Shown here: piece after piece, positions 5,650 through 39,523 of the stretch
Position numbering within the stretch: the first letter of the stretch is position 1
How the letters are laid out: every line of letters begins with the position of its first letter
Assembly: GCA_025093985.1 (NCBI GenBank)
Contig: JACAAK010000005.1
Span: 2,046,001-2,110,000, forward strand
Reading direction: 5' to 3'
Source of the DNA: Calvatia gigantea
Taxonomy: Eukaryota > Basidiomycota > Agaricomycetes > Agaricales > Lycoperdaceae
Length of the DNA: 64,000 bases
Position numbers and translations under genes: made by a program
Notes under the pieces: generated by a model
Database searches by the model: none
The model's input: the letters and a program-made list of their open reading frames with translations, nothing else
What the model was told of the DNA's origin: nothing

Positions 5650-6945
5650 TGTAACGGCAAAGCTGTTTTCACGCATGAAAATCGCTAATCTAAGGCATAC
5701 AAGCCTAATCTAACAATTGCATCAAACCTTCCTGTAGTAGTATGACCTAATCTAAGAGCCCAACAGTATAATAAAAGAGTACTTGATCACTGTAGAACAC
5801 TATGGCCATTGATGACGGATAGCGGTGGCTATGGGATGACCACTGTGCTTAACAAAAAGCAATTCTAACAGTGTACCATATGACCAGTTGTGATTCTGGC
5901 CGGACCAGGTGGTAAAACCATTCCAATATGTCTATACAGAGCTACGGGACCCCTCCAATGAGCCTAGACTCAGGAAATAAGTCCGACGTGCTTAATCTAA
6001 AAGGATGATCGGCATGCTCACAAGGAAATGCCACCATTGTTAGATTAATGAACAACACTCAGCACTAATGATGTGCATGGACACATTCACGTACAATTCA
6101 CAGGGACACATAGGAGAACAGTTCACATGATGTCTGAAATCTTAGATGTTCTACATATTTAGAGAAGAATGCAGACCCAGAGAATGGGCTAAAACACAGC
6201 CCAGAACAAATGGATACCCGGAATCCTTCTGTATTTCCAATGTTTCACTAATTTAACAGGTTGTGGCTCTCTTGGCATGCGATCTAATCTACTGGTTTGT
6301 ACCTTGCTTGATAATATGTTCCTAGTCATGTAATCATTATCTTGTCATAACGAGCACCCAAATAATATATAAACCCCCTTGTGCCTGAGCGAAGCAAAGT
6401 AATAAGTTCTTTCGAGATTAACTAGACTAAGTGACTTGAGCTAAGGTTGAGACCTTTTGATCTAAGAAGAAGACCTCGGGCTTACTCATGAAGTGAGCTT
6501 AGATTAAGAGCATATTGCATTGCTACACCCTGGTACTTGGCGTATCACAAGTGTAGGACAGTGCGCTTCTGGTCGTTAACTTGATAAAGGTGAATCTTAG
6601 GGAGTACCTGAGGTTCTGTGTCTTGTTGACTTCTTGGATAAGGGATGCAAGTTGCACTTTTTTACAGTGTAACTTGGCTTTACTCTTTTTAGCGAAGGTA
6701 GTTAGCTATTCTAGTGTTCTCTATGCATCGTTGTTTCATGTTATTTTGTGGAGTTGTCCCTCATATTGTCAGATTGCCTCCCCACGAACTTGCCTTGTGC
6801 AGAAATCTTTAAAAATCTATTCTGTCAGCTTAATCTAAGCCATACATCCATATCACATTTAGTATTAATCTTTAAAATCTATTCTGTCAGCTTAATCTAA
6901 GCCATACATCCATATCACATTTAGTATTCTATTTCTGCCTCTTTA
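5650..6945 (+). repeat. solo LTR of element I
   Basis: A full-length element I LTR from TGTAAC to CTCTTTA without internal sequence, flanked by ACGA (5646-5649) and ACGG (6946-6949), which fits a 4-bp duplication of ACGG in integrase DNA. It lacks about 75 bases downstream of the TATA box (around 6371) and has an extra copy of a roughly 66-bp segment (6803-6930) near the 3' end. It arose by LTR-LTR recombination. Confidence 0.88.
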
Positions 6946-7115
6946 ACGGACTACCAAGGAAAGTACTCAGCAACCGAGGACCTCAATTCACATCAGAATT
7001 CACCAAAGAACTATTCAAGGGGCTCAGCATAGAATGCAACCTGTCAATAGTGTACCACCTGCAAATGGATGGACAAACAGAGCGCATCAACAGAGAAGTA
7101 GAAATGTACATCCGC
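6946..7115 (+). pseudogene. element II integrase fragment
   Basis: This continues the integrase frame cut at 5649. The encoded text resembles [20 protein letters not shown] and the following QMDGQTERINREVE, which is the core-domain segment around the second catalytic Asp. It stops at an element I LTR (7116). The last 115 bases are repeated at 9080-9197. Confidence 0.8.
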
Positions 7116-7722
7116 TGTAACGGCAAAGCCGTTTTCACACATGAAAATTGCTAATCTAAGGCATACAAGCCTAATCTAACAATTGCATCAAACCTTCCTG
7201 TAGTAGTATGACCTAATCTAAGAGCCCAACAGTATAATAAAAGAGTACTTGATCACTGTAGAACACTATGACCATTGATGACGGATAGCGGCGGCTATAG
7301 GATGACCACTGTACTTAACAAAAAGCAATTCTAACAGTGTATTATATGACCAGTTGTGATTCCAGCCGGACCAGGCGGTAAAACCATTCCAATGCGTCTA
7401 TACAGAGCTACGGGACCCCTCCAATGAGCCTTGACTCAGGAAATAAGTCCGACATGCTTAATCTAAAAGGATGATCGGCGTGTTCACAAGGAAATGCCAC
7501 CATCGCTAGATTAACGAACATTGCTCAGCACTAATGACGTGTATGAACGCGTTCATATACAATCCCTAGGGACACATAGGAGAACAGTTCACGCGACGTC
7601 CAAAATCTTAGATGTTCTACATATTTAGAGAAGAATGCAGACCCAGAAAACAGGCTAAAACACAGCCCGGAACAAACGGATACCCGGAATCCTTCTGTAT
7701 TTCCAATGTTTCACTAATCTAA
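7116..7722 (+). repeat. element I LTR 5' fragment
   Basis: The first about 607 bases of an element I LTR, preceded by CCGC. The first ~350 bases look identical to 9198-9540, so the two are a recent duplicate or an assembly artefact. The LTR stops at 7722 where reversed ORF3 sequence begins. Confidence 0.8.
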
Positions 7723-9197: not shown

Positions 9198-10369
9198 TCC
9201 GCTGTAACGGCAAAGCCGTTTTCACACATGAAAATTGCTAATCTAAGGCATACAAGCCTAATCTAACAATTGCATCAAACCTTCCTGTAGTAGTATGACC
9301 TAATCTAAGAGCCCAACAGTATAATAAAAGAGTACTTGATCACTGTAGAACACTATGACCATTGATGACGGATAGCGGCGGCTATAGGATGACCACTGTA
9401 CTTAACAAAAAGCAATTCTAACAGTGTATTATATGACCAGTTGTGATTCCAGCCGGACCAGGCGGTAAAACCATTCCAATGCGTCTATACAGAGCTACGG
9501 GACCCCTCCAATGAGCCTTGACTCAGGAAATAAGTCCGACAGACGTCCAAAATCTTAGATGTTCTACATATTTAGAGAAGAATGCAGACCCAGAAAACAG
9601 GCTAAAACACAGCCCGGAACAAACGGATACCCGGAATCCTTCTGTATTTCCAATGTTTCACTAATCTAACAGGTTGCGGCTCTCTTGGCACGCGATCTAA
9701 TCTACCAGTTTGTACCTTGCTTGATAATATGTTCCTAGTTGTGTAATCATTGTCTTGTCATAACACACACCCAAATAATATATAAACCCCCTCTGAGGTG
9801 TCGGACATGGCAAGGAACCTACTAGCCATTGCCCAGCCTTCAGAGCACAGTGAAAAGCGATCTATTGTGCCTGAGCGAAGCAAAGTAATAAGTTCTTTTG
9901 AGATTAACTGGACTAAGTGACTTGAGCTAAGGTTGAGACCTTTGTAATCTAAGAAGAAGGCCTCGGCTTACTTGCGAAGTGAGCCTAGATTAAGAGCGTA
10001 TTGCATTGCTACACCCTGGTACTTGGAGTATCACAAGTGTAGGATAGTGCACTTCTGGTTGTTGACTTGATAAGGGTGAATCTTAGGGAGTACCTGAGGT
10101 TCTGTGTCTTGTTAACTTCTTAGATAAGGGATGTGAGTTGCGCTTTTTACAGTGTAACTTGGCTTTGCTCTTCTTAGTGAAGGTAGTTAGCTATTCTAGT
10201 GTTCTCTACACATCGTTGTTTCGCGTTATTTTGTGGAATTGTCCCTCATATTGTCAGATTGCCTCCCCACGAACTTGCCTTGTGCAGAAATCTTTAAAAA
10301 TCTATTCCGTCAGCTTAATCTAAGCCGTACATCCATATCACACTTAGTTATTCTATTTCTGCCTCTTTA
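9198..10369 (+). repeat. solo LTR of element I with internal deletion
   Basis: Runs from TGTAAC to CTCTTTA but lacks about 130 bases around 9540. It is flanked by CCGC on the left and CCAC (10370-10373) on the right, consistent with a CCGC target duplication in which one CpG has decayed. The interrupted integrase resumes at 10370. Confidence 0.85.
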
Positions 10370-12978: not shown

Positions 12979-15826
12979 ATGGAAAAAATACAGAGCATGG
13001 CCACTACAGAAGATTTATGGAAAGAAGAAGACAAACCAGACCCAACCAAGCCAGAAGATTTACCAGACTACATACAACCATTCACACATCTGTTCAACAA
13101 AACAATGTTTGACAAACTCCCAGAACGCACCGAATGGGACCATGAAATAGTCTTAATGGAGGATGCCCCAAAGGAAATAAGTGCAGGAACATACAACATG
13201 ACAGTCAAAGAACAGGATGAACTCAAAGCATTTATCAAAGAAAACCTAGAATCAGGATGAATACGACCATCAAAATCCCCATATACAGCACCAACCTTCT
13301 TCATACCCAAGAAGGATGGATCCAAGAGATTAATTCAAGACTATAGGCAATTAAACAATGTGGTAATCAAGGACAAAACACTGCTGCCAAGAATTGGCGA
13401 GATGATCAACAAGCTTGGAAAGGCCAAGTATTTCAACAAGCTTGATATTATCTGGGGATATAACAATATTAGGATTAAGGAAGGAGATGAATGGAAAGTG
13501 GCATTCCTCACCAACAAAGGGCTCTTCAAGCCAACAGTCATGTATTTCAGACTCAACAACTCACCAGGGACCTTCTCCAGGATGATGACAAGCATCTTCC
13601 GAGACCTATTGCAAAACAGAGACATTGTAAACTATATGGACGACTTCACCATTCTCAGTGACACCAAGGAACAGCTAAAGGAATGGACAGTACAGTTCCT
13701 GGAGTGTGTAGCACAATACAATCTATGTTTCAAACGAACCAAATGCATCTTTGATGCAGAAGAAATCCCTATGTTAGAAGTCAAAGTGGGGTATAGACAA
13801 ATCGAAATGGAAGAAGAAAAAGTCAAATCGGTGCAAGACTGGCCAGAGCTGAAAAACACAAAAGGAGTAGAAAGGTTCCTAGGCTTCACCAACTACTACC
13901 AACATTTCATCAAAGACTTCAGCAAGATCACAGGACCACTAAACAAACTCAAGGGAGCATTTACATGGGAATGGAATCAAGAACACCAGACAGCCTTTGA
14001 TCACCTTAAAAAGTGCATCACCGAAGAGCCTGTGTTAACCCTACCACAAAGACAAGGACAGTTCAGGGTAGAAGTTGATGCATTAGACTACATGTTAGGA
14101 GGCATGCTATTGCAACTACAGGAGGACAAATGGCACCCAATCACCTTCACATCGCGAATGCTATCACCGGCAGAGCGAAACTACAAAATATATGACAAAG
14201 AGCTGCTGGCCATCATCCATGCCCTGAAGGAGTGGAGACATTACCTGCTAGATGCTGAAGAAAAATTTGAAATCTGGACTGACCACGAAAACTTAAAATA
14301 CTACCAAGAACTGCAAAAACTGAATGGATGACAAGCTCAATGGTACCTACGCTTACAGGACTACGACTTCACACTGTGACATGTACCTGGAAAAACAAAC
14401 ACGAAGGCTGACTTATTGTCCCAAATCCACCAAATACCAGAAGGACAAGAAGACAAGCTAGTCACCATGATCCGAGAAAGTTGGCTACAAACAAGAAATA
14501 CAGATGATATAGTACTCTTACGTGTAGAATTGTTCCTCGAGCCAACATTCCTAGAACAGATCCAGAACAAGCCCCAGCATGAGACAGCAGTTCTCACAGA
14601 GTTAAGAAAACCAAGTTCCAAGCTCACCAAGGAGCATGGAATTATCTACAGACAAAATAGTGCATATATCCCACCTGACCCGAAACTATGGAAAGAAGTT
14701 CTGGCGCAATATCATGACATTCCAGATACAGAACACCCAGGTCAGCATAGAATGATGGAACTAATCAACCACAACTACTGGTAGCCAACAATGAGAAAAG
14801 ATATAAAAAGGTACATCTGAGGATGCCAAGCCTGCCAGAAAAACAAAGCTAGAATAACACCACTCAAATTGCCACTTCACCCCCTCCCTATACCAAAAGG
14901 GCCTTGGGAAGAAATCAGCATTGACATGATCAGGCCACTACCAGAATCAGAAGGGAAAGACACAATACTAGTCATTGTCAATCGGTTTGCGAAAATGATA
15001 CGACTCACAGTGACAACAATAGATGTTTCATCCAAGGATGTCACAAGGATCTATTGAGATGAAATATGGAAGCTACATGGATTGCCAAGAAAAGTGCTAA
15101 GTGACCGAGGACCCCAATTCACATCAGAATTCACAAAAGAGCTATTCAAAGGACTTGGCATAGAATGAAACCTATCCACGGCGTACCACCCACAAACTGA
15201 TGGGTAGACAAAATGCATTAATAGGGAAGTGGAAACATACATCTGCCTGTACTGCAATTATGACCAAAACGACTGGGCAGAATGGCTCTCCATTGCAGAA
15301 TTCCAGTACAATGACAAATGACACAGAGGGACACAGGAAATGCCATTTTTCCTAAACTATGGGAAAAATCCATGGAAAGGCAAGAATGAGCCAACGACAA
15401 ACAACCTCATCACCACTAAATTCCTACAACACCTTCAGAACACCCGAGATAATGCTGCATCAGCACTATGGACATATCAAGAAAAGATGAAACAACAACA
15501 TAACCACAGTAAAACCCACACCGTGTCACATCAAGTAGGCAATGCAGTATGGCTGGAGAACACCAACATCCATACCAATCAAACATCAAAGAAGCTAGGC
15601 CAAAAACGGTATGGACCTTTCCTTATTAAGGAAAAGATAGGAGAAGTGGCATACCAGCTAACCCTACTAGGGGGATGGGCCATCCATGATATATTCAATG
15701 AACAGCTCCTGTCACCAGCCCACAAGGCTGAGTTCCCAAGTCAGAAACAGCCATCAGCGCCTGACCCAATCATCATCAACAATGAAGAAGAGTACGAAGT
15801 AGAGGAAATCTACAGATGAAGGAAAT
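12979..15826 (+). pseudogene. element II Pol (RT, RNase H, integrase), copy A2
   Basis: A long open RT-RNase H stretch (13360-14331, about 323 codons) holds YMDD near 13636 and RNase H (VDALDYMLGGMLLQLQ). Integrase follows with the zinc-binding region (about 14740-14840) and core ([20 protein letters not shown] near 15080), then the start of the chromodomain (EEYEVEEIYR). Stops at 13258, 14329, 14782, 14818, 15055 and 15166 break it. It is cut at 15830 by element I and continues at 29984. Confidence 0.88.
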
Positions 15827-15830
15827 GCGG

Positions 15831-17137
15831 TAAAGAGGCAGAAATAGAAATACTAAATGTGATATGGATGTTCGGCTTAGATTAAGCTGACGGAATAGAT
15901 TTTTAAAGATTTCTGCACAAGGCAAGTTCGTGGGGAGGCAATCTGACAATATGAGGGACAATTCCACAAAATAACGCGAATCAACGACGCGTGGAGAACA
16001 CTAGAATAGCTAACTACCTTCGCTAAGAAGAGTAAAGCCAAGTTACACTGTAAAAAGTGCGACTCGTGTCCTTTATCCAAGAAGTTAACAAGACACAGAA
16101 CCTCAGGTACTCCCTAAGCTTCACCCTTATCTAGTTAACGACCAGAAGCACACTGTCCTACACTTGTGATACGCCAAGTACCAGGGTGTAGCGATGCAAT
16201 ACGCTCTTAATCTAAGCTCACTTCACGAGTAAGCCCGAGGTCTTCTTCTTAGATCAAAAGGTCTCAATCCTAGCTCAAGTCACTTAGTCTAGTTAATCTC
16301 GAAAGAACTTATTACTTTGCTTCGCTCAGGCACAATAGATCGCTTTTCACTGCGCTCTGAAGGCTGGGCAATGGCTAGTAGGTTCCTTGCCACGTCTGAC
16401 ACCTCAGAGGGGGTTTATATATTATTTGGGTGCTCGTTATGACAAGACAATGATTACACAACTAGGAACATAGTATCAAGCAAGGTACAAACCGGTAGAT
16501 TAGATTGCGCGCCAAGAGAGCCGCAACCTGTTAGATTAGTGAAACATTGGAAATACAGAAGGATTCTGGGTATCTGTTTGTTCCGGGCTGTGTTTTAGCC
16601 CGTTCTCTGGGTCTGCATTCTTCTCTAAATATGTAGAACATCTAAGATTTCGGACGTCGCGTGAACTGTTCTCCTATGTGTCCCCGTGGATTGTACGCGA
16701 ACGCGTCCATACGTGTCATTAGTGCTGAGTGATGTTCGTTAATCTAACAACGGTGACATTTCCTTGTGAACACGCCGATCAGCCTTTTAGATTAAGCACG
16801 TCGGACTTATTTCTCGAGTCTAGACTCATTGGAGGGGTCCCGTAGCTCTGTATAGACGCATTGGAATGGTTTTACCGCCTGGTCCGGCTGGAATCACAAC
16901 TGGTCATATGGTACACTGTTAGAATTGCTTTTTGTTAAGCACAGTGGTCATCCCGTAGCCGCTGCTATCCGTCATCAATGGTCATAGTGTTCTACAGTGA
17001 TCGAGTACTCTTTTATTATACTGTTGGGCTCTTAGATTAGGTCGTACTACTACAGGAAGGTTCGATGCAATCGTTAGATTAGGCTTGTATGCCTTAGATT
17101 AGCGATTTTCATGCGTGAAAACGGCTTTGCCGTTACA
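15831..17137 (-). repeat. element I 3' LTR
   Basis: In element orientation it begins TGTAACGGC and ends GCCTCTTTA. It carries a TATA box (complement of 16414-16421). Two adjacent palindromes lie at its 5' edge, AACGGCAAAGCCGTT and TTTTCACGCATGAAAA. The octamer TAATCTAA or its complement occurs about eight times. About a dozen mostly C/T or G/A differences separate it from the other LTR. A 67-codon open frame (15877-16080) recurs in other LTR copies. Confidence 0.93.
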
Positions 17138-17149
17138 TCTCCCCCTCAC
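17138..17149 (-). other. element I polypurine tract
   Basis: The minus strand reads GTGAGGGGGAGA directly upstream of the 3' LTR, the expected position of the plus-strand primer in reverse transcription. Confidence 0.8.
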
Positions 17150-17586
17150 TATAGATGACTGCCCTCAGTCCTCCGTTAAGTCTGACATGATCATTAAGCA
17201 ACAACTTTGCTTTCTCTCTGTTTGCTGATCTTTAAGCGCGCACAGAAGCGCCGGGCTCAATCAACTAGAAGTATTTTTATGCTTCACGGTGAAGTCTTCG
17301 AGGGATGATCTGATTTCACCCTCTTCGACGTCGAGTTCTCCTTTCGGTAACCCTATCGCCGTTAGCGGCTAATGCTTCTCGCAGCTGATATCCGCTGTTG
17401 CTATCTTAAGCCTTTCATGGCTGCCTGTTATTCTAAACATTTTTATATGTTTTGTGTGTATCTTAGATACATTCCTCTCGCTAAGTACGATACCGGGTTG
17501 TAGAACCTCGCTCATCCGTTTTGGACCGTGAGATTAAGAACCCGGCCTTATCACGTTGCGTTAGCTTAACCTTCCCTCGATCGTGC

Positions 17587-17595
17587 GGTATATAA
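17587..17595 (+). promoter_or_regulatory. TATA box of antisense gene 1
   Basis: GTATATAAG lies about 50 bases upstream of the ATG at 17643, on the strand opposite to gag-pol. It suggests the cargo gene has its own promoter instead of depending on the LTR. Confidence 0.6.
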
Positions 17596-17642
17596 GAACG
17601 GCACACGTTTTTTCTTCCTAGTTTCATACATCTATCATCGTT

Positions 17643-19861
17643 ATGGCTGCCCCGCACGATTCCAACGCAAATCTGGTCACTCCGGCCTCCATTCGCAACA
17701 GTCTGGTGGCTCGTGGATTCGAAGGAGAGGAGTTGGAGAACCGAGTTGCAGAAATGGTGGACATGCTGTGTCCAGGGTGGATGGGTACGCCCCTTTTTTC
17801 TTCTCTGGTGTTCAGTGTGCTAATCTCCGCCTCTAATCTCAGGCGGACCACTACGAGCACCCATGCCACTTATCCGGCCAGCGCTCTCATTTATCGCGCC
17901 GGCCCCCACTGTTGGTCTCCAACAGAACGAAACGTTTATGTTCCCTCCCATTCAGACCTCCTTCGATGCTCCCGGGCCTTCGCTTAGGCCACAGCCCATT
18001 ATCTACCACCCAGGAACCGGTGCCCGTATTCCTCCAGGCATGCAGGCCGTGACGCTACTGCCAACACCTATTGGTACTTTTCTTTTTTTTACTCTATCTT
18101 GTTATTCCTGAGCTAACTTGTGATCTCAGCTGCAACTCAGTCATCGCCGTCTTCTTCTAAGCCAAAGAAGTCCCGGAAACGCGCCGGGAAGGCACGTCAT
18201 TCATCTACTTTTAACCGTATTTCTTGTTTGACCATTTATCTAACAGAACCTCGATGTTCCGACCCCAATTTCGGCAGGTCCGTCTGCCTCTACTGACCCT
18301 CCAATGTCTTCCATGGCGATGGGAGGATCTATTGCAACCAGCCGGCCTTCGCGCATAGCTGCTCCCAAGACTCCTGGTGCCCTTGTCGACGTAAGTCATT
18401 TGATTTATGACCGTTTTTATCTTAATCTAATTTCATTCATCTAGCCCGCGGCCGCTCGTCTTGCCTTGTTGGCCGCTCAGGCAAAGGCACAGGCTCGGAC
18501 TCGTCAACGAGCTACAAACGCATCACCGGATGACGCCCCACCCAAGAAACGTGCTCGCGAGGCCGTCACGTCGGCCAGGAAGACTCTCACCGCTCCTGCC
18601 CTCTCCGCGTCGTCGTCTATCTCTACGACGAATTCCTCCAAACCGAAACCTCGCCGGGTGATCCTGAAGATCCCCATCAGGGAAGAGACAGTAACCGCCC
18701 TCCCCGAGGCCCTTCCAGAGACAATCTGTCCCGCTTCTTCGCCGGTGGGAGAGATTGACGTCGAGGAGGTTGAAGAACCCCCCAGGAACGTTCCGGAGCC
18801 TGCAGAGCCCCGAACCCGTCGTCTCCGTAAGTCTCTTTTCGTCAAATCTTGTCTTTCTTTGCTAATCTAACAGGTGCTGCTCGTCGTACGGACGAGGACC
18901 TCGTTGAGGAGTGCGGCTTGAAGGCGGCCGCCTCCTTCTTTTCTGACGTTGGGCCAGCATTCTCGCTGCTCAACGCTGAGCCTTATGTGAGTGTTTTTCA
19001 TACAAGGTACACCTTAATCTAACACTTTTCTAGGGCAGCGCCGGACAGCTTCAGTGCCTAAACTGCATGAAGCTGTTCTCACCTGACTGCACTCCCGGTG
19101 GCAAGGACCAGGACGGCAAAACTCGCAAGTGCAAGCAATGCCTTGCCCAGAATGCCGCCCACTGTTCGGATACCAAGCCGGCACCTCTCCTTCAGTACCA
19201 GGCTGAAGGTGCTCGACTTCGCTCCCTGACCAGCGACCACTGTAAGTCATTTTTATTCTCTTATCTAAGTGGTTATGTTGGCTGACCAACACTATTTCTT
19301 GTTAATCTAGACCTCGCCGACCGATTCCGGAACCTGACGGCGGCCCACGCTCAAGTTTTCGGGCTCGAAACTTTCCTGGACATGGCTTACGCGAACTACC
19401 ACGCCCTCGTCTACTCGTTTGCGAAGGACATCCAGATCACGCGTCAACTTCACGGTCGCGAGTCCTCCTTCTGGGTTGAGTCCGGGCTCTGCAAGACCCA
19501 AAGCGACGCCTCCGACCTGTTCGCCTTCGTCGACGGATTCCTTGACGAAGTCCATGCTTCGGAAGATCCCGATCTCGCTCGCTGGTCTTACTTCGCTCAC
19601 AGCCGTTTCCTCAACGTGCTGTCTGGTTTGCGTGGGGAGGCACCCAGGACATGGCCTGGCATGCCTCCTACCCCGTCCTTCGCTTCGAAACACGCCGACT
19701 TCACTGATCCCCCCGTCCCTCGTGTCAAGAAGGCCCGCTCCGCCAAATCTAAGGGGAAACAGCGAGCAGCATCGCCCCCTCCTTCCTCGAGCCTGCCTAT
19801 CAGCGAGGAGGAGTTCAATTCCGGGGACGACGCGGCGGCGTCTTCTGATTACGAATCCTGA
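17643..19861 (+). CDS. antisense cargo gene 1: Zn2Cys6-like nuclear protein
   Basis: The 610-residue protein is read by joining eight exons: 17643-17784, 17843-18073, 18130-18191, 18247-18390, 18445-18826, 18874-18986, 19034-19241 and 19311-19861. All seven introns are 47-69 nt and keep the frame; the third is GC-AG. Basic patches (KPKKSRKRAGK near residue 140, PPKKRAR near 227) suggest nuclear import. Six cysteines at about residues 366-404 are spaced C-x2-C-x7-C-x13-C-x2-C-x7-C, close to but outside the classical Zn2Cys6 spacing. The C-terminus is helical and then acidic (SEEEFNSGDD). It lies inside element I, opposite to gag-pol, about 500 bp from the 3' LTR. No family was recognised; a DNA-binding regulator is an inference. 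Confidence 0.8.
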
Positions 19862-20173
19862 GGTTCGTGCGGCGTTTTTTCTTGTCATATCTCGAGAGTC
19901 TTCGGAGTAGATACATTACCGTAGTAGTGTATTCCGCTCCCCCAACATCTTGCTAGGTATCTAGGTACATCCTACTTAGATATATGTTTTTTCTTTAGTC
20001 TTTCTGCATCTTTGGGTGATACCCTGGATGCTCAATTCAATCTGCTTGTGCGTGTTTTTGTGTGAATCCATAAATCTTAAATTTTTCCAGAAGTAAGTGT
20101 GTGGATTCGCCAAAATTTTGTACCATTGCACGTATATTGCACGTCTAGTCAAATCTAAGTCTCTGCAGTACAC

Positions 20174-20185
20174 ACTCCCCCCCAC
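20174..20185 (-). other. internal polypurine-like tract
   Basis: The minus strand reads GTGGGGGGGAGT. The tract and the following GGGTGCCCTCACCC resemble the sequence beside the 3' LTR (polypurine tract, then GACTGCCCTCAGTCC). It lies between the two cargo genes and could be a relic of an earlier 3' end or a second plus-strand primer. Confidence 0.4.
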
Positions 20186-20519
20186 TAAAACGGACGGGTG
20201 CCCTCACCCTTATGCTATCCATTTCAGAGACGTGTGAGAGGTGTCGCTATGGTATGACCTATTTCAAATCTCGGCGACTTTTTGCAATTTCAAAACGTCG
20301 TGGCTCTCATCGTTCAAAATTCGCCAAAAGCAGCCGAATTTTTCATTCTTATCTTACACAGGTTTTTCCGCTAATCTCAAGGTCTTTTTCACCAGCAGTT
20401 TGTGCCGTATTTCTAGATAGACCCTTTTTTGATGTAGCTACATATAATCTAAACGCAGGGAACTTGTACCTCAGTTCTCCTTGCTGTATATCTCGCTAGG
20501 ATCTCTTGTCATTCTCTTC

Positions 20520-21858
20520 ATGTCTGCTGATACTGTTAATGCTCGTATTGAGCTAGACGATGCGATTAGTACCTTCCAGCACCGATTGCAACGTTTTCAG
20601 CGTCAGGAGAGCACACAGGCTTCCGTATTTAATGCTTTGAACGACGCTACTGCCCCAGCCGTAAGTCTTAGATTAGCACCTTCGACCATTGTTGTCGACA
20701 GCTAACGTGTCTATCCTTTCAGTCTCAGTTCCTTCGTCAACTTTCAGGCGATGCTGCTGGTTTAGAAGACGAGAAGAATGTTAATCTCGTTTTCCGCGCT
20801 CGCAAGATCTTTGAGACCTGGCAGAACGAACATGACAAGGCTTTCAAGATGCCAGAAGTCTACAAGAAACTTCAAGACTTCTGTGCTCAGTACCAGCGCT
20901 CCAAAGCTAAAGCTAAGTCAAGTTCATCTGGACCAGCAAGCCCTGCCGCAACTCCCACGTCTACGACGACTACTACTGGCTCAGGTCCTCCAACCAAAAA
21001 AGTGCGCAAAATCTTTAATCTAAGTCGATCCGTTGTTATCTCAATAATGTCCGCTAGTGTCGTCGCAGTAAGCAAGTCATTTCGCCCGAGACCGTTGACG
21101 ACTCTGACAAAGAGGAGACATCGAGGACCGTAAGTTATTCTGATATCTCCTATTGCCTTAATCTAACGTTGTTTTCGCCACAGGAGACCATGCAAGTTGA
21201 TGATTCTGGCCCTCCAGGAACAGCTGTATCCCCTGATGACGACCGAACCAGTAGCGCCATGGTGCTCGAGCCTCAAATCGTCACTACCGCTGTTAACCAG
21301 GTGAATCATTCTTTCTCCCGTCGCCGCAGCACATCGTTCTCAGCTGTGGTTCGTCTTGCTTTCTTCATTAATCTTGGTTAGCTATTGCTAAGACTCATTA
21401 ATCTATGCTTGCAGGAGACAGCTGTGGCTGATACTCGTGCTGAGACGGTGTGTATACCTTATGCCTTTGTGCCTGGCTTAGATATCAGCAGTAGCGCTTA
21501 TAAGCGAGCCATACAGCTTACTACCGGTGTGAAGCATGTTCATTTTTCGCCTTCCACTCCGGAACAAGGTCAGCTTTTCAGAACACCTTAGTGCGTCCTA
21601 GCTGATAACCAAATTCCATAAGTTGTGGCTCTAGCAAAGGTCATTGAGCCGTTGACTCTCAAGAATCGCGAGCTCTATGCTCACTATGTCACTCGTTGCG
21701 AGAGCGCCGTGCTTCAGACTAGTCTCCTTGGTACCAGCTCCGAGTTAATCTCAGCAGCCCAGGCATTGGAAGCCGCTGCTCGCCGCTATGAAGTCTTAGC
21801 TAAACAGCAGGAACATCTCTTTGTTCAGTTAGAGAAGTTATCCGGCCATTCTGCTTAG
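20520..21858 (+). CDS. antisense cargo gene 2: coiled-coil protein of unknown function
   Basis: The 327-residue protein is read from six exons: 20520-20660, 20723-21001, 21073-21129, 21184-21300, 21415-21568 and 21623-21858, all joining in frame. The 21002-21072 intron has a poor donor and its acceptor is uncertain. The protein starts MSADTVNARI, has a Ser/Thr/Pro-rich linker near residues 115-140, an acidic stretch (VDDSDKEE) and a C-terminal Ala/Glu-rich helix (LISAAQALEAAARRYEVLAK) likely to form a coiled coil. No domain was recognised. It lies inside element I on the strand opposite to pol, converging with integrase about 115 bp downstream. Introns again contain TAATCTA motifs. Confidence 0.7.
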
Positions 21859-21974
21859 ATTACCTCTAGCATTCTTCAATCACCCGTTTTTACTTAGATA
21901 GTTTTTACCCTCAGTTTGTACGCGTTCACGCAAACAGAGTTTTCTATTTTATGATGAAATTCGGTGTGATCGCG

Positions 21975-23340
21975 TCAGTTCTCGATGTCTGAGTCTGTTA
22001 GCTTTGCCTCTGACTCATCTTCCATGATTAATCTATCCAAACCGTCCTTAGATAGATCAATTAAATGTTCGATTTTCTCGTCCAGCGTTAGCTTAGACCG
22101 TGCTAAGTAAGGTATTACTCTAAAAGCTGCGACCTTATTTTGCCACACGGATCCGTCCAGTTCTGCTAAGATATACGCGCCACCTTTAAGTCGCTGAATC
22201 ACTACCATAGGTCCTAGATACCTTGGCTTCATTTTGCGATCTGCTGACATTTGTATGGCTGAATTCTTAACTAAGACTAACGATCCCGGCTTTAGGTCAA
22301 AGTCTTTTATCTTATATTTCATTTCTTCTTCTAGTTTTAAAGCCCTATTTAACTTTTCGTTAGATAGATGTTTTCGCATTTCATCTATGTATGTGGTCTA
22401 CGTGTTTAGCTAAGGCCAGTGCTCGTAGACCGATAAGTTCTTCTGTAGATAGGAAACGTTCTGGGTATTTAACTAACCAGGTTGCTTCTATTATATCTAA
22501 TGGTAACGTTGGGTGCACTCCCGTTGCCATGAAGTAAGGCGAACATCCCGTACCCTTTCTTATTGTTATTCTATCAGCCCACATTACATGGTGGAGATAC
22601 CAGTACCATTTTCTGACATCGCCATTTGTGGCCTTATACAGCATTTGTCTAACATCCCAGTGGGGTCTTTCTATTGTCCCGTTAGCTTGTGAGTTGTAGG
22701 GAGAGATAGTGACTCCTTTAATCCCATACTTCTCAGCTAACCAGCCAACTGCTTTCTTAAATGGCGAGCCATTATCCGTGACAATCTTCACAAGACTTCC
22801 CCATCTGCAGACGATATCTTCGAAAAGCCATTGTCCGATAGACTTGGCGTTCTCTTTTCTTAAGGCTCTGGCTTCCATCCAGGATGAAAGTCCACATCGG
22901 CCGTGGACAATATAACTACAACCGTTTGACGGCGGAGTCATATGTATTGTATCTGCATGTAAGATTTGGAAAAGCGATGGAGTATGCGTCACTACCGGTG
23001 GCAATTCTAATGCCATCTTCTGTCTAACCTGACACAGGTGACATGTCTTCACATACCATGCTATGTCGCCCTCCATTTCTGGCCACCAGAACCTCTGAGC
23101 TATGAGCTTTGTGGTCACGTACGCTCCTCTGTGCCCTAGCTTATCATGACAAGTTTTCATAATTCTCATCCAATGTTCTTTAGCTAAGACGAGCGCAGGG
23201 TTTCCACCACTCGCAGACTTCCTGTATAAGCGACCGTCGTCGTCTAGCCAAAAGTGTGAGGCAGCCCTCACAAATTTAGCTTGATCGGCATCCATTTTAC
23301 TGATGTCAAATCCTTTCGGGTCGTTAGCTAACCATTCCCG
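21975..23340 (-). pseudogene. element I integrase
   Basis: The zinc-binding domain is intact (H-x4-H in HDKLGHRGAY, CHLCQVRQ), and the core holds the DDE triad: LHADTIHM, VKIVTDNGSPF and NSQANGTIERPHW. A C-terminal segment ([15 protein letters not shown], then [10 protein letters not shown]) follows in another frame. A small indel near 22380-22383 shifts the frame between core and C-terminus, and a TGA at 23344-23346 separates the reading from RNase H. The enzyme would insert element DNA into the host genome. No chromodomain was seen after it. The two lesions make this copy probably inactive. Confidence 0.87.
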
Positions 23341-23343
23341 GAT

Positions 23344-25743
23344 TCAACTGAGTCGTTTATCTTGCATTTTTGCTGTCTCCAGCCTCCGGTCTTCATTATA
23401 GGGTGCCAGTTCTTCGTCGTCAGGTTCTTTATCTAAGTTTTCTGACTCTAAGGTAGCGACCCTATCTAAGAAAGCGCGGAGCAACTCAGGATATTTTTCC
23501 TGGTTAGCTATCATGCGTCTGGTCTTTATGTCTTGTTGGGTAGATTCCTTAGCGTTATCTAAGTCGTTTTGGAAGTCTACCAACAGGCTCATTACTTGCT
23601 GCGTGTAGCCTGTTCGATTATCTATTTCTTCGTAGAATTCTTCTAAATCTAATGGGTCTTCGTCTTCCGGGTTAGCCTTAGATAGAATAAAGTCATCCCC
23701 GTTGTCCTCAGATCCATCGTCAAAGGCACGTTCTACTGGGTCCCCTGGGTACCAAGGTCTTCTCGAGAGTCCGTCAGGCCCAAAGGCCTTACCTTTCTTA
23801 TGTACAAGTTCAAAATGAAAGTTTGTCCGTATATAATCTACCCAGCGATTTATCGTCGCATTAGGCAGTCTTCCGGGGTTGTTCAACATTCCAAACAAAT
23901 ACTTAGCATCTGTCTCAATGATTAGATTTCGACAACCAGTCAATAGATAAGTCTCTTCTTCTAAGACCATTCTTAGACCGCACAATTCTCGCTTAGGTTG
24001 TGAATATCTCTGTTGTCGTTCGTCCATAAGCAAAGAGTTAAACTTCACATAATGGATTATCTTATGATCTTCCTCGTCTCTTTGATAGAGATAATATCCT
24101 ACTGCTCTCCAGGACGAGTCAACCGATAGGACTATGGGCTGAGTGCTTGGAAACTTCGGATTTCTAGTATGAAAGCAGTTTTTAATTGCTTCCTTTAGAT
24201 TATCTTGGGCTGTCTGCTGTTCAGGTCCCCATTCGAATGCTATATGCATCTTGCACACATTATATAACGGTGCAGCGATTATCACAAAGTTCGGAATGTG
24301 ATTCCTACATCTAACGGCTGTCCCCAAGAAAGATCTGGTCTCTGAAGCGTCCTTACAAGCGCCCCATCGTAATATAACACCGATGGCGTCTGCTGTCGGT
24401 TTTCTTCCTTTATATGAGCAGTCAAATCCTACAATAGTTATATGATCTGCACATATTGTTGTCTTTGGCCCGGAAAAGGTGCCTCCCGCATATTTCATTC
24501 GTTGTAATATGTGGTTCACCGTGTTCATATGTTCCCATATGAATCGCCTAATGCCCGGGTTCCCTTCTATAACCTCGTAATCACTGTTAGATAACTCGTA
24601 ACGCGTAGGTGGTCCCCGTATAGGCACGTCGTCAATATAGGGGACTGTATGTTCCGGAATTTCATCTGACAATATATAGGTAACGTCGTCATGAAAGATA
24701 GGTACTGAATTAGTCCATCCCATAGGCAACGTTACTAATCTAAGGGCTCCGAATGGTGTTTGGAAAGTCGTTAGATCTCTAGACGACTCAGCCAACTGCC
24801 TTTCGTCATACCCTACATATAAATCTAATATGCCGCTACAAGCCCTTCCTGAGAAGTGCATAGCTAATTCTTCTGTTGCGGGCGGCAGACCCGAATGCGC
24901 GATTGTCACTCTATTTAGAGGCTCTAAGCTATGTACTAGTCTGAGACTCTTTCCGTCTTTCTTAAGTACGCAAAACCATTTAGATCTATAAGACGAATTC
25001 GAGGGCTCATATACCCCTGCGTCTATTTTTCTTTTGATGATTCTACACACTTCGTCATATATCGCTGGGGGAATCCTGAAATGTCTTTCTACCCATGGTA
25101 TATGGGCAATAGTGGGGATCTCTATCGGAGGGAAAAACTCCTCCTTAAATTTGCCCCTTTCAGTATCATCCCAAGCGAACGCTTTATTGTGTTCTGCAAT
25201 TAACCAATGCATTAGCTTTCGCTCCTCGTAAGTCAAGAAGTCCCCAATATGAGCCGCATCCATCTTGTTTTTCCGTTCTTCGGTATACCTGCCTTTAGAT
25301 TTGAAAGTTGGCGGGTTAACCGGCAGGATTGGCAGCTCAGTCAAGGGATCTCCAATTATCTCTCGTTTTATTCTGTATTTGTCTGGTAGTTCTCCCAGTA
25401 CGGGTCTCACTTTCAATGCGACTGGTTTATATTTCTTAGCTAAACAAAGAATATGTTCCTCCTCTGTAGGTGGTCCATAGATTTCGTCTAACGCTGTCAC
25501 TCTTTGAATAACTCTGCTAGGACTTACAATCTGAGATAAGAACGTAGTAAGTAGTTCTTTATCGCGAGACCGCTGCGTCGCTAAACTCTTCTGTAAGTAT
25601 ATTAGATTAACTTCGTCGGAGGTCATAGATTTTACCTCAACTGCCAACGTTTCACTAATATATGGTTTATTCTCGTTATCTAAGCTAATTATAAGAGCAA
25701 CCTCTCCTTCAATGCCTTTTTCGAAGTCATTGAGGCTACTCAA
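23344..25743 (-). CDS. element I reverse transcriptase and RNase H
   Basis: About 799 codons. The RT domain includes LDLYVGYDERQ, TLPMGWTNSVPIFHDDV and the catalytic PYIDDVPI (near 24630). RNase H follows (VLSVDSSWRAVGYYLYQ, ETDAKYLFGMLNN). It has no ATG at its start: the frame opens with TTG overlapping the TGA of the protease frame, so it should be made by -1 frameshifting at AAATTTT (25743-25749). It ends at a TGA, after which the same frame continues into integrase, so the stop is likely a decayed CGA. Confidence 0.88.
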   Translation of the reverse strand: MSSLNDFEKGIEGEVALIISLDNENKPYISETLAVEVKSMTSDEVNLIYLQKSLATQRSRDKELLTTFLSQIVSPSRVIQRVTALDEIYGPPTEEEHILCLAKKYKPVALKVRPVLGELPDKYRIKREIIGDPLTELPILPVNPPTFKSKGRYTEERKNKMDAAHIGDFLTYEERKLMHWLIAEHNKAFAWDDTERGKFKEEFFPPIEIPTIAHIPWVERHFRIPPAIYDEVCRIIKRKIDAGVYEPSNSSYRSKWFCVLKKDGKSLRLVHSLEPLNRVTIAHSGLPPATEELAMHFSGRACSGILDLYVGYDERQLAESSRDLTTFQTPFGALRLVTLPMGWTNSVPIFHDDVTYILSDEIPEHTVPYIDDVPIRGPPTRYELSNSDYEVIEGNPGIRRFIWEHMNTVNHILQRMKYAGGTFSGPKTTICADHITIVGFDCSYKGRKPTADAIGVILRWGACKDASETRSFLGTAVRCRNHIPNFVIIAAPLYNVCKMHIAFEWGPEQQTAQDNLKEAIKNCFHTRNPKFPSTQPIVLSVDSSWRAVGYYLYQRDEEDHKIIHYVKFNSLLMDERQQRYSQPKRELCGLRMVLEEETYLLTGCRNLIIETDAKYLFGMLNNPGRLPNATINRWVDYIRTNFHFELVHKKGKAFGPDGLSRRPWYPGDPVERAFDDGSEDNGDDFILSKANPEDEDPLDLEEFYEEIDNRTGYTQQVMSLLVDFQNDLDNAKESTQQDIKTRRMIANQEKYPELLRAFLDRVATLESENLDKEPDDEELAPYNEDRRLETAKMQDKRLS

Positions 25744-26819
25744 AAATTTTGCTCTTTAATTCGCAGTAATTGGCCTTTAGCGTAAGTAGGCAACGTTGCT
25801 CTATTCTTTGTATTGGGATCGGTAATGACTATCATTTGTGCTCCTTCAGCAGAATTCACCACTCGACTTTCTGTTAGGACGTCGAAAGGTCTGCCTAATA
25901 ATATTGAGTATGGTGGACTGTCGACTACATGGACCTGTAGATAGACCGTCACGTCTCCGAAGCTGAACGGCACATTCTTAGCTAGACCACAAGTCTGGCT
26001 TATCTGGCCATTCGCACTCTGCATGTTGATAGTCGTATCTGGATCCCATGTAATTCTACAATCTATCGCCATATTTCTGGACATGGATACAATTTGTGAA
26101 CCACTATCCAACAAAGCCTCTTCTTCTCTAAGATCGTTTACTAAGGTCGGAATGACTCTTAGCGAAGCCATATCTTTGGCCGTTATAGTCCCATTATTAT
26201 CTAAGGAGAATATATGCTTGCCTCTATCTTCCCGAGGTACCGCTTCCAAGTACTGTAGAATAGGATCGGTAATTCTCCAAGTTAGATAGGGACGTCCTTC
26301 AGTGTCCAAAACTTTCTCTGCGACTTTCTCTGGTTTCGCGAGCGTTGAGACCTGTACTAAATTAATGACAGGCTCCGCATTTTCCGAATCAGATTCGTCG
26401 TCTTCGATATGCAATGCGTTGTTAGATTTAATTGCTACGCGTCTTTTAGCAATTTGGTCTTTGTACTTTTCTCGGAGTTTGGGGGAAATAGCCAATAATT
26501 CTTTGTGAGATAGAGAGACGTCTCCTTTGAGAATTCTCTCTAATATTTTATCTAATTCAACCCCATCCTCAATTTCTGTTTTGTGTTTATATGACGGCTG
26601 CTTTTGTTCGCGCAAGTACTTTGCAGGTACAGGCGGTACTTCTACAACTGGCCTAAGAGATCTAACGTTTTTATAGGGAAAATCGTTGACCTGCTTAGAT
26701 TTCGTTGGTTCTGTGTTTTCTTTGTCTTTGGCACTTAGATTAGGATCATCTTCTTTATCGCTCTCCGATTCTGTCTGTTTCCTGGCGGGGACCTTCCGTC
26801 CAGGGGACAGTTTCTTCAT
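25740..26819 (-). CDS. element I aspartic protease ORF
   Basis: About 359 codons starting MKKLSPGRKV. The N-terminal half is charged and disordered. The C-terminal half has the retropepsin signature (ALLDSGSQIVSMS, then YSILLGRPFDVL). The protease would mature the Gag and Pol polyproteins. The ATG lies 8 nt after the Gag stop and in the -1 frame relative to Gag, so either reinitiation or slippage on the T5 run at the Gag stop could express it. Confidence 0.85.
   Translation of the reverse strand: MKKLSPGRKVPARKQTESESDKEDDPNLSAKDKENTEPTKSKQVNDFPYKNVRSLRPVVEVPPVPAKYLREQKQPSYKHKTEIEDGVELDKILERILKGDVSLSHKELLAISPKLREKYKDQIAKRRVAIKSNNALHIEDDESDSENAEPVINLVQVSTLAKPEKVAEKVLDTEGRPYLTWRITDPILQYLEAVPREDRGKHIFSLDNNGTITAKDMASLRVIPTLVNDLREEEALLDSGSQIVSMSRNMAIDCRITWDPDTTINMQSANGQISQTCGLAKNVPFSFGDVTVYLQVHVVDSPPYSILLGRPFDVLTESRVVNSAEGAQMIVITDPNTKNRATLPTYAKGQLLRIKEQNF
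25743..25749 (-). promoter_or_regulatory. candidate -1 frameshift site, protease to RT
   Basis: The minus strand reads CAA AAT TTT TGA. The heptamer A-AAT-TTT fits the X-XXY-YYZ rule, sits directly before the protease stop, and slipping back one base enters the RT frame. Confidence 0.6.
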
Positions 26820-26827
26820 CGAACCGC

Positions 26828-28600
26828 TTAAAAACCTGACTGATTCTTTTTAGAGCTGTCCTTCTTCTGAGCCAAAGCCAAAATCTTTGCAAGCTGACTG
26901 GCCAGGTCGTCAGAATCGTCTTCTTCATCGGACGCTGGTTCAGGATCTTTAGCTTTGCGTGATTTCACAGGCTTAGTGCCAGATAGCAATGTTTCAATTG
27001 TGTTAAGGCAGCCTTTTAGATTTTCTAGTTCTAAGCCGCGTCTATCTAACACTTGCTTGCTCTCTTCAATTATACTATCTCTAGTATCTTTAAGTTGGTT
27101 TGTGTAGATGGAAATCTCAGGTGCGCGACCATAAGATTGGTAGGGACCTAGATCAGGTACTTCCTCTTCTTGAGGCAATTCGGGTTGCATGCCTAGGCAT
27201 ACCAATAGCGTGTTTGGTAAGTACTTCGCTACGATAGCCTTAATAGACATCCCTTCAATTCTAGGTATGGGTGAGCCGTCCGCAAATCTAAGTTGATTTC
27301 CGTCGACTTTAATTTTTCCATCTTTCACGTCCTGGTCTTTTTCTGGACATGCGAGCCAATGATGCTTTGGATCGAAACAATAGTAGCATCCTCTGCCTAT
27401 CCCGGCCACGGCCTCGTTATTCTGTCTCGGCTGTCCCTGACCATAGTTTACAGGGTTTGCAGGACGCGTAAATTTTGTCTGCATTGTAGCTTTCATGGAG
27501 TCCATAAAACTCTGCATATTTTTCTGATTAACAGCCAGAGTATCTTTTAGATTAGCGATTTCTTCACGTAAGTCCGACTGCTGCTCAACAGGTTCGCGTT
27601 TTACTTGCGGTGGTATAGCTCGAGACATAGTCTCCGGATTGTTATCGTATTTTAACGCTTTAGCTATGGTCTTTCCACTGACCAGCTCTACTGCTTTAGC
27701 AACGACTTCAGTCCAATCATATGGATCTTCGCCTCGGGCCACGCCTCCTGCGCGAGCGCGACCGTTGATACTTAATCTAGTATTCAAGTTCTCTTGGAAG
27801 TGTTTATCTAGACTTCCAACAAACATTTCTACCAGTTCACGGTTCGTTACGAGTGGCGGATTTGTTAGACATTTTTCTGCTTGTAACGAGAACTTCCTCT
27901 TGAAAGCTAAGAGGTGTTCTTCGTCAAACATACTAATGTGTTTGTATTCTTGTCCTAATGCTCGTAATCTAGCCACTGAACCTTGTTCTTCTGCTACGAG
28001 CTCCGGATACTCCTGCTTCAAACGATCTTTAAAACCGTTCCAGTCTGGAGTTATATATTCCGGGAAGCTTGTCCATTCATCTCGTACGCTAGGCTCTACA
28101 TAGCTAACGGCCCATTTTACTTTATCTTCCATGTCTGTGATACTAGAGACATCGAATAAGCGTTCTAGACGCCATAGGAAGTCTCGGAGTGTAGCTCCTC
28201 GACCATCCCATACTGGGGCTCCTGTAGCCATAGGGTTTGGCATAGCAGGGCTAGGCATAGTGTTTGGCTGATTTGAGTTCGTTTGAGAGGTAGTTTGGGT
28301 CTGTGGTTGTGCCGGTATTGGCAAGTTTCACGCTAGATTAGGCGAAGGGTCCACGGAAACAGCAGGATTTACTGTTCGTGAAGTGCGTTTGCGAGCTGAA
28401 CTTTCGCCAAGAGTGTCTGAGCGTTGAGAACGGCGGGCGTTTCTAAGCAACTGCTCTGGATTATCTAGCTTCGGTAACGGCTCTGTTCTTCTAGAATTTT
28501 GAGTCTCTCGACCTTTGGGTTTTGTTTTGTTCTGTTCTGGTACAGGATGCGAAGTAGCAATCTGTTTTTTATATGCTCCGGGTGGAGGCCCGAAGCTCAT
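26828..28600 (-). pseudogene. element I Gag with one in-frame stop
   Basis: The likely start is MSFGPPPGAY (28600), continuing through one TGA (28328-28330; GCG TGA AAC, plausibly a decayed CGA) to the end at 26828, about 590 codons. The core has WRLERLFDVS and WTSFPEYITPDW, typical of retrotransposon Gag. A single zinc knuckle-like motif is CYYCFDPKHHWLAC. The acidic and basic C-terminus ends NQSGF. An upstream in-frame ATG at 28642 is also possible. Without readthrough the first ATG after the stop gives a slightly shortened Gag. Confidence 0.85.
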
Positions 28601-28652
28601 TTTGAGAACGGTAAAAGGATGTGGAAATAAAGTGGCTCTCACACTGAAACTC

Positions 28653-28670
28653 CCCTCGCGGTGGGCTCCA
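28653..28670 (-). other. element I primer-binding site
   Basis: The minus strand reads TGGAGCCCACCGCGAGGG, two bases after the 5' LTR. Beginning TGG, it fits pairing to a tRNA 3' end (CCA) with U as discriminator. The tRNA was not identified. This differs from the self-priming arrangement of elements II and III. Confidence 0.65.
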
Positions 28671-28672
28671 GA

Positions 28673-29979
28673 TAAAGAGGCAGAAATAGAAATACTAAAT
28701 GTGATATGGATGTTCGGCTTAGATTAAGCTGACGGAATAGATTTTTAAAGATTTCTGCACAAGGCAAGTTCGTAGGGAGGCAATCTGACAATATGAGGGA
28801 CAATTCCACAAAATAACGCGAATCAACGACGCGTGGAGAACACTAGAATAGCTAACTACCTTCGCTAAGAAGAGTAAAGCCAAGTTACACTGTAAAAAGT
28901 GCGACTCGTGTCCTTTATCCAAGAAGTTAACAAGACACAGAACCTCAGGTACTCCCTAAGCTTCACCCTTATCTAGTTAACGACCAGAAGCGCACTGTCC
29001 TACACTTGTGATACGCCAAGTACCAGGGTGTAGCGATGCAATATGCTCTTAATCTAAGCTCACTCCACGAGTAAGCCCGAGGTCTTCTTCTTAGATCAAA
29101 AGGTCTCAATCCTAGCTCAAGTCACTTAGTCTAGTTAATCTCGAAAGAACTTATTACTTTGCTTCGCTCAGGCACAATAGATCGCTTTTCACTGTGCTCT
29201 GAAGGCTGGGCAATGGCTAGTAGGTTCCTTGCCACGTCCGACACCTCAGAGGGGGTTTATATATTATTTGGGTGCTCGTTATGACAAGACAATGATTACA
29301 CAACTAGGAACATATTATCAAGCAAGGTACAAACTGGTAGATTAGATCGCGCGCCAAGAGAGCCGCAACCTGTTAGATTAGTGAAACATTGGAAATACAG
29401 AAGGATTCTGGGTATCTGTTTGTTCCGGGCTGTGTTTTAGCCCGTTCTCTGGGTCTGCATTCTTCTCTAAATATGTAGAACATCTAAGATTTCGGACGTC
29501 GCGTGAACTGTTCTCCTATGTGTCCCCGTGGATTGTACGCGAACGCGTCCATACGTGTCATTAGTGCTGAGTGATGTTCGTTAATCTAACAACGGTGACA
29601 TTTCCTTGTGAACACGCCGATCAGCCTTTTAGATTAAGCACGTTGGACTTATTTCTCGAGTCTAGACTCATTGGAGGGGTCCCGTAGCTCTGTATAGACG
29701 CATTGGAATGGTTTTACCGCCTGGTCCGGCCAGAATCACGACTGGTCATATGGTACACTGTTAGAATTGCTTTTTGTTAAGCACAGTGGTCATCCCGTAG
29801 CCGCTGCTATCCGTCATCAATGGTCATAGTGTTCTACAGTGATCGAGTACTCTTTTATTATACTGTTGGGCTCTTAGATTAGGTCGTACTACTACAGGAA
29901 GGTTCGATGCAATCGTTAGATTAGGCTTGTATGCCTTAGATTAGCGATTTTCATGTGTGAAAACGGCTTTGCCGTTACA
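28673..29979 (-). repeat. element I 5' LTR
   Basis: It has the same 1307-bp length and ends as the LTR at 15831-17137, with about a dozen substitutions and no indel. It carries the TATA box, the edge palindromes and the TAATCTAA motifs. It is followed on the plus strand by GCGG, the right half of the target duplication. Confidence 0.93.
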
Positions 29980-29983
29980 GCGG

Positions 29984-38333: not shown

Positions 38334-38338
38334 AATAT

Positions 38339-39523
38339 GAGGGACAATTCCACAAAATAACACAAAACAATGACACATAGAGAACACCAGAATAACTAGC
38401 TATCTTTGCTAAGAAGAGTAAAGCCAAGTTATACTGTAAAAAGCACAACTCGCGTCCCTTATCTAAGAAGTTAACAAGACACAGAACCTCAGGTACTCCC
38501 TAAGATTCACCCTTATCAAGTCAACGACCAGAAGCGCACTATCCTACACTTGTGATACTCCAAGTACCAGGGTGTAGTGATGCAATATGCTCTTAATCTA
38601 AGCTTACTTTGCAAGTAAGCCAAGGTCTTCTTCTTAGATTACAAAGGTCTCAACCTTAGCTCAAGTCACTTAGTCCAGTTAATCTCAAAAGAACTTATTA
38701 CTTTGCTTCACTCAGACACAATAGATTGCTTTTTACTGTGCTCTGAAGGCTGGGCAATGGCTAGTAGGTTTCTTGCCATGTCCGACACCTCAGAGGAAGT
38801 TTATATATTATTTGGGTGCTCGTTATGACAAGACAATGATTACACAACTAGGAACATATTATCAAGCAAGGTACAAACCAGTAGATTAGATCATGTGCCA
38901 AGAGAGCTACAACCTGTTAGATTAGTGAAACATTGGAAATACAGAAGGATTCTGGATATCTGTTTATTCCAGGCTGTGTTTTAGCCCATTCTCTGGGTCT
39001 GCATTCTTCTCTAAATATGTAGAACATCTAAGATTTCAGACATCATGTGAACTGTTCTCCTATGTGTCCCCGTGGATTGTATGTGAACATGTCCATACAC
39101 ATCACTAGTGCTGAGTGACATTCATTAATCTAACAATAGTGGCATTTCCTTGTGAGCACACTGATCATCCTTTTAGATTAAGTGTGTTGGACTTATTTCC
39201 CGAGTCTAGGCTCATTGGAGGGGTTCTATAGCTCTGTATAGATGCATTGGAATGGTTTTACTGCCTGGTCTGGCTGGAATCACGACTGGTCATATGGTAC
39301 ACTGTTAGAATTGCTTTTTGTTCAGCACAGTAGTCATCCTGTAGCTGCCACTATCCATTATCAATGGTCATAGTGTTCTACAGTGATCAAGTACTCTTTT
39401 ATTATACTGTTGGGCTCTTAGATTAGGTCATACTACTACAGGAAGGTTCAATGCAATCATTAGATTAGGCTTGTATGCCTTAGATTAGTGATTTTCATGT
39501 GTGAAAATGGCTTTGCCATTACA
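38339..39523 (-). repeat. old element I solo LTR, right part
   Basis: The remainder of the LTR begun at 31869. With the left part it totals 1306 bp, nearly the full LTR length. Almost every CpG of the younger LTRs is TpG or CpA here, making it the most decayed element I LTR in the window. It ends TTACA, followed by CCAC. Confidence 0.88.

Follow-up and report, generated by a model that had tools for sequence, protein, structure and literature searches.

The stretch of Calvatia gigantea DNA analysed here, referred to below as the window, is 64,000 nucleotides in length (contig JACAAK010000005.1 of assembly GCA_025093985.1, positions 2,046,001 to 2,110,000 of the forward strand) and contains a 14.1-kb Ty3/gypsy long terminal repeat (LTR) retrotransposon with gag-pol on the minus strand. 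Two predicted multi-exon genes, G1 and G2, are located on the plus strand between the integrase and the 3' LTR of this element. Our reading, to which we assign a probability of roughly 0.6, is that G1 and G2 are genuine antisense accessory genes, with splicing and promoter use predicted from the sequence. The gene models are as follows.

17589..17596, plus strand: TATA box TATATAAG ahead of G1, within the internal region
17643..19861, plus strand: G1, 8 exons, 610 amino acids
17643-17784, 17843-18073, 18130-18191, 18247-18390, 18445-18826, 18874-18986, 19034-19241, 19311-19861, plus strand: exons of G1
20520..21858, plus strand: G2, 6 exons, 332 amino acids (327 with the other acceptor)
20520-20660, 20723-21001, 21058 (or 21073)-21129, 21184-21300, 21415-21568, 21623-21858, plus strand: exons of G2

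An earlier note on this DNA had described two antisense multi-exon genes that are intact in the window copy, and this description holds for the 610-residue G1, as all seven junctions join in frame without a stop across introns of 47-69 nt. Six of the G1 introns are GT-AG and the third (18192-18246) is GC-AG, with the GC donor kept in 13/13 of the aligned pieces that cover it. For G2, the six exons do join with the acceptor at 21073 to give the 327 residues claimed, but the acceptor at 21058 fits equally well and gives 332. Both candidate AGs for the third exon are conserved in every covering piece, and hence there is no choice between the two lengths. The G2 introns are 54-114 nt, which brings the total for both genes to 12 introns (7 in G1 and 5 in G2), and the G2 stop codon was read directly at 21856-21858. 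G2 and pol are arranged tail to tail with 116 bp separating their stop codons. The TATA box ahead of G1 is unchanged in 13/13 pieces shown (window included).

Intron retention, copies and selection

The alignments used here consist of 22 pieces, including the window's own, and leave out small places such as C12:2288031 and C77:1602119. The earlier note proposed that introns antisense to the genomic RNA survive retrotransposition, and the alignments fit this, as no piece that covers an intron is without it. The genomic RNA would be the complement of G1 and G2, so that the introns would stay in and be copied at each round of retrotransposition. Spliced G1 and G2 mRNAs would then be producible from the integrated DNA copy alone. 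The splice dinucleotides were examined in 186 intron cells with both ends covered, and 160 of these keep GT/AG (or the GC/AG of one intron). The 26 altered cells comprise 24 donors changed from GT to AT, one AG changed to AA and one AG changed to GG. As 22 of the 24 donor changes sit after a C, and are thus at CpG sites, they fit CpG decay. At the 44 splice-dinucleotide sites outside CpG there are 0 transversions and 4 transitions.

The 4763-bp gene region has 36 matching places in the 46-Mb genome. Nine are full-length copies with identities of 90-100%, five of them at 98-100% (window included) and four at 90-94%; the remaining matches are partial at 74-95%, plus one 67-bp piece at 100%. Older pieces at 82-87% DNA identity also carry the gene region. 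Of the gag-pol matches, 51 in all (40 of 46 candidates scored), 19 extend to the 3' end of pol (query start 1-3). Every one of the 19 adjoins a gene-region match on the G2 side, although two of these gene-region matches stop at 66-67 bp, in one case at the end of a contig. Both genes are free of stops and have all splice sites in 3/5 copies of 98-100% identity, and G2 alone is in this state in 5/5. G1 and G2 belong to the whole element family and not to a single copy. Additionally, three copies of other pol lineages (reverse transcriptase (RT) at 46-49%; loci L069-L071) were viewed as lists of open reading frames (ORFs) only, without multi-exon modelling, and the G1 and G2 protein searches of the genome listed no match near these three loci.

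Selection was examined by the ratio of nonsynonymous to synonymous changes per possible change (N/S), for which each combination of site and base was counted once against the window, unpolarised, and the changes were split into CpG transitions, other transitions and transversions. The decay among copies consists mostly of CpG transitions, which affect 6.6-10.5% of G1 CpG sites in the window's four closest relatives compared to 0.2-0.5% for transitions elsewhere, as would be expected if silent copies are methylated. The N/S of the CpG transitions is 0.90 for G1, 1.07 for G2 and 0.71 (p 0.08) for the integrase. The CpG transitions in G1 and G2 look neutral and are tied to decay, and for this reason the non-CpG changes were used for the selection test. 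A plain comparison of divergence (13.1% in G1 exons vs 6.5% in introns, copy C5_710483) had been read as an absence of selection or as positive selection; this was dropped after the CpG split, since CpG transitions, which are frequent in these exons, cause most of the excess. The non-CpG transversions in the proposed frames (S, synonymous; N, nonsynonymous) are as follows.

G1: 27 S, 35 N and 0 stop of 445, 2009 and 92 possible; N/S 0.29, p 3e-6
G2: 8 S, 5 N and 0 stop of 223, 1234 and 80 possible; N/S 0.11, p 2e-4
Integrase: 8 S, 6 N and 0 stop of 197, 1176 and 107 possible; N/S 0.13, p 2e-4
Integrase C-terminal part: 4 S and 3 N; N/S 0.11, p 0.007

Non-CpG transitions in the proposed frames give an N/S of 0.53 (p 5e-8) for G1 and 0.75 (p 0.05) for G2. 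Ten alternative frames of the G1 and G2 exons (two plus and three minus for each gene) were tested in the same way and their transversion N/S ranges from 0.40 to infinite with a lowest p of 0.1, while the pseudo-frames of the intergenic region give 0.98-1.38 over three frames. The intergenic region has 8.1% transversions per non-CpG site and the region upstream of G1 has 2.9%; the introns have 5.4% (G1) and 4.5% (G2), the exons 4.1% (G1) and 1.6% (G2), and the integrase 1.8%. Along G1, residues 1-60 have a transversion N/S of 0.03 (9 S, 1 N), residues 131-330 one of 0.15 (13 S, 8 N), residues 331-440 one of 0.10 (only 2 S, 1 N) and residues 441-540 one of 0.55 (2 S, 6 N); residues 541-610 have 0 S and 3 N. 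These results show that frame-specific purifying selection acts on the G1 and G2 proteins over the 22 aligned pieces. The constraint on G2 is about equal to that on the integrase, and the constraint on G1 is lower and uneven. The earlier note had asked whether other copies carry the genes with N/S below neutral, and the 19/19 pol 3' ends and the values of 0.29 and 0.11 indicate that they do; the outcome that it had named as contrary to its proposal, a single copy with a host orthologue and no selection, is not what was found.

Architecture of the element

The remaining features of the window copy are listed below.

15827..15830 (left) and 29980-29983 (right): target-site duplication GCGG, 4 bp, seen by direct reading in the window copy
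15831..17137, minus strand: 3' LTR, 1307 bp
17138..17150, minus strand: polypurine tract AGTGAGGGGGAGA, adjoining the 3' LTR, direct reading
21975..22379, minus strand: integrase C-terminal part, SH3_Tf2-1 match under the family cut-off
22381..23295, minus strand: integrase, Integrase_H2C2
23344..25743, minus strand: RT and RNase H, open for 799 amino acids
25740..26819, minus strand: aspartic protease region with DUF4100
26828..28642, minus strand: gag region, named from its position without a gag family match; one stop splits the window copy
28653..28670, minus strand: primer binding site, 18 nt complementary to the 3' end of tRNA-Arg(UCU) including CCA
28673..29979, minus strand: 5' LTR, 1307 bp

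The Ty3/gypsy assignment follows the LTRs, the target duplication, a primer binding site matching a host tRNA gene, that of tRNA-Arg(UCU), the polypurine tract and the order gag (by position only), protease, RT, RNase H and integrase. The Pfam scores of the protease, RNase H and Integrase_H2C2 are above the cut-offs and that of RVT_1 is below. A scan of the two integrase pieces at E<=1 returned no chromodomain, the domain after the integrase that marks a chromovirus. Among named proteins, the closest RT relative is a hypothetical protein from Agaricus bisporus var. burnettii with 68% identity, and unnamed proteins reach up to 85%. Pol has 1773 matches in the protein database, of which the best 120 were listed, and searches of genome_contigs (bacteria and archaea) and viral_contigs returned no relative of pol. 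As the earlier note had stated, gag and pol of the window copy are interrupted: the pol reading is broken ahead of the integrase and inside the integrase C-terminal part and gag is split, with RT open. Comparison of the two LTRs over 1306 bases gives 14 differences (9 of them CpG transitions), and the polypurine tract has one change across its 13 bases in the 12 pieces shown.

Several further observations were made on the element and its surroundings. An older gypsy copy, present at window positions 15340-15819 and resuming from 29980, surrounds the element. Further LTR-like stretches, from the same family or a close one, are present at 335-1524, 5647-6379, 7111-7722 and 9198-10252 (inverted) and at 38334-39523 (same orientation). 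The protease and RT frames overlap at a T run (about 25735-25750), which may mark frameshifting or reinitiation. The octamer TTAGATTA, counted on both strands, occurs 8 times in the LTR (15832-17137) vs 0.065 in base shuffles, and 7 times in 17643-21861 vs 0.125, and the last 34 kb contain it 9 times vs 1.6. The same tRNA-Arg primer binding site core is found near two other pol lineages (C4:1136895 and C6:1063685), a few kb from the pol matches. Ahead of G2, at about 20175, there is a polypurine-like tract that might have been a second plus-strand primer; this idea was dropped, as the similarity of the tract to the real polypurine tract scores 25 compared to a mean of 19.9 (sd 2.3, maximum 29) in base shuffles.

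Function and origin of G1 and G2

By analogy with HBZ and the plant antisense ORFs discussed below, G1 and G2 are most likely nuclear accessory proteins with a regulatory role. The earlier note had suggested that one of the two may be a regulator, and G1 is a plausible candidate, since it contains a six-cysteine cluster (residues 366, 369, 377, 391, 394 and 402) together with basic patches seen on direct reading of the protein. All six cysteines are conserved in 13/16 covering pieces. Zn2Cys6 regulators (Zn_clus, PF00172) follow the rule C-x2-C-x6-C-x5,12-C-x2-C-x6,8-C. Like these, G1 has six cysteines in two C-x2-C groups, but membership was rejected as two of the gaps in the G1 pattern, C-x2-C-x7-C-x13-C-x2-C-x7-C, exceed the rule by one residue and there is no Zn_clus match.

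In the proposed mechanism, RNA polymerase II would transcribe G1 and G2 antisense to gag-pol from promoters within the internal region and the mRNAs would be spliced. The proteins would act in trans in the nucleus, tuning element transcription, nuclear entry or integration. G1 would work through its cysteine cluster, which is probably zinc-binding, and its basic patches, with G2 perhaps as a partner. Tentatively, and with more doubt than confidence, it may be suggested that the antisense strand serves as an intron-safe compartment, in which a two-gene module spliced only from integrated DNA both reports and controls the integrated state. If true, two protein families that are unrecognised in the libraries searched would make up a DNA-stage regulatory circuit apart from the RNA stage.

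A number of results weigh against reading G1 and G2 as selected genes with a regulatory function. At the donors of G2 introns 1 and 3, AT stands in place of GT in 7/18 and 8/16 pieces, and therefore most old copies cannot splice G2 normally. G1 residues 61-130 (window 17881-18146) are unconstrained, with 16 N and 1 S transversions, and are either relaxed or diversifying. The controls are not fully clean: of the three pseudo-frames upstream of G1, one gives a transversion N/S of 0.32 (p 0.05), against 1.02 and 1.12 in the other two. For non-CpG transitions, one wrong G1 frame (minus strand, shift 1), whose third positions coincide with those of G1, has an N/S of 0.55 (p 8e-7), and for CpG transitions two wrong frames of G2 have 0.68 (p 0.03) and 0.73 (p 0.05). 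All changes were counted unpolarised, and there are 13 of them behind the G2 test and 14 behind the integrase test. Neither protein matches the large protein database or passes a Pfam cut-off, and low-confidence predicted models of parts of G1 exon 8 and exon 7 (mean predicted local distance difference test (pLDDT) of 57 and 65) gave no match at E<=0.001. The regulatory role leans on one cysteine pattern, basic patches and analogy.

The two proteins could instead be structural or integration helpers (nuclear import, targeting), like other retroviral accessory proteins. Nothing found separates such a role from a transcriptional one, and the low-confidence models of parts of G1 show helices. The cysteine cluster and basic patches suit DNA or chromatin binding at least equally, however, and the profile scans gave no evidence of an import or targeting domain. 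We consider this explanation unlikely.

A second explanation, corresponding to the 'cargo' label of the earlier note, is that two neighbouring fungal genes were taken up in antisense orientation and are merely carried, perhaps to the benefit of the host. The multi-intron structure resembles that of ordinary fungal genes and G1 has its own TATA box. Yet every pol 3' end found carries the gene region, as do the 82-87% older pieces, and the constraint on the genes is similar to that on the integrase. Protein searches of the genome at E<=1 returned the element family plus one weak match for each gene (E 0.38 and 0.15), with no homologue outside the family below E 0.15, and a recent capture of host genes is unlikely. 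In the protein database, G1 had no match among the 7996 candidates sharing most words and G2 had no match; as the method depends on shared 5-residue words, this absence is weak evidence. Sequence searches against solved structures gave nothing credible. We regard cargo as quite improbable. These results are compatible with an ancient capture, be it from a gene since lost or from another species; the homologue search covered this genome. With no source gene found in the host genome and a constraint of the element-gene type, the term 'accessory gene' fits better than 'cargo'.

It is very improbable that the antisense RNA and not the protein is functional, pairing with the genomic RNA to feed RNA silencing or block translation with the frames being incidental, since the transversion constraint is frame-specific (N/S of 0.29 and 0.11 vs ~1 for a frame-neutral RNA) with 0 nonsense changes among 75 transversions (G1 62, G2 13), even though both genes are fully complementary to the genomic RNA, G2 converges on pol and regulation by antisense transcripts is discussed in PMC7264820. 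A role of the RNA alongside the proteins is possible.

Comparison with known systems

The accessory genes proposed here can be compared with antisense genes of other LTR elements. In plant Ty3/gypsy elements, the aORF-3R group (Grande gene23, RIRE2 and Retand) consists of antisense ORFs between pol and the 3' LTR, for which a regulatory role has been proposed (PMC7264820, PMC11963269). Grande gene23 has its own promoter and encodes a nuclear protein (PMC7264820). Like the plant ORFs, G1 and G2 lie between pol and the 3' LTR, antisense to gag-pol, and are found in most copies. They differ in having a fungal host, in being two in number and in carrying 7 and 5 introns; the main text of PMC11963269 does not use the word 'intron'. 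TRP28 (PF04195), which characterizes the Retand proteins, had no match at E<=1 in G1 or G2.

Boty of Botrytis cinerea, also a fungal LTR element, carries the antisense gene brtn between pol and the 3' LTR (PMC7264820, PMC8365987). By description, Boty is alike in this placement and set apart by the number of genes, as one antisense gene is described there and two are found here. In retroviruses, HBZ of human T-lymphotropic virus type 1 (HTLV-1) and APH-2 of HTLV-2 are spliced antisense genes near the 3' LTR whose proteins tune sense transcription (PMC3736048). G1 and G2 resemble these in being antisense genes close to the 3' LTR that are predicted to be spliced. HBZ is a bZIP protein and its transcript begins in the 3' LTR and joins two exons (PMC3736048), whereas G1 has no bZIP match in the Pfam scan and its TATA box is in the internal region. 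The available part of PMC5408684, on bdelloid LTR elements with additional ORFs, holds nothing on introns. No fungal element with two spliced multi-intron antisense genes was found in literature searches that covered titles and the starts of abstracts, with most subscription papers outside reach.

Movement through RNA would be expected to strip an element of its introns, and this family keeps 12 by antisense placement, with the encoded proteins under selection. The role of antisense accessory genes in LTR elements is an open question in the literature (PMC7264820, PMC11963269). The clear selection signal and the several young copies in which both genes are open would make this question testable here if the host can be cultured. 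Antisense accessory ORFs are already known from plants and Boty, and it is the two genes with 12 introns together, under measured selection, that may be new.

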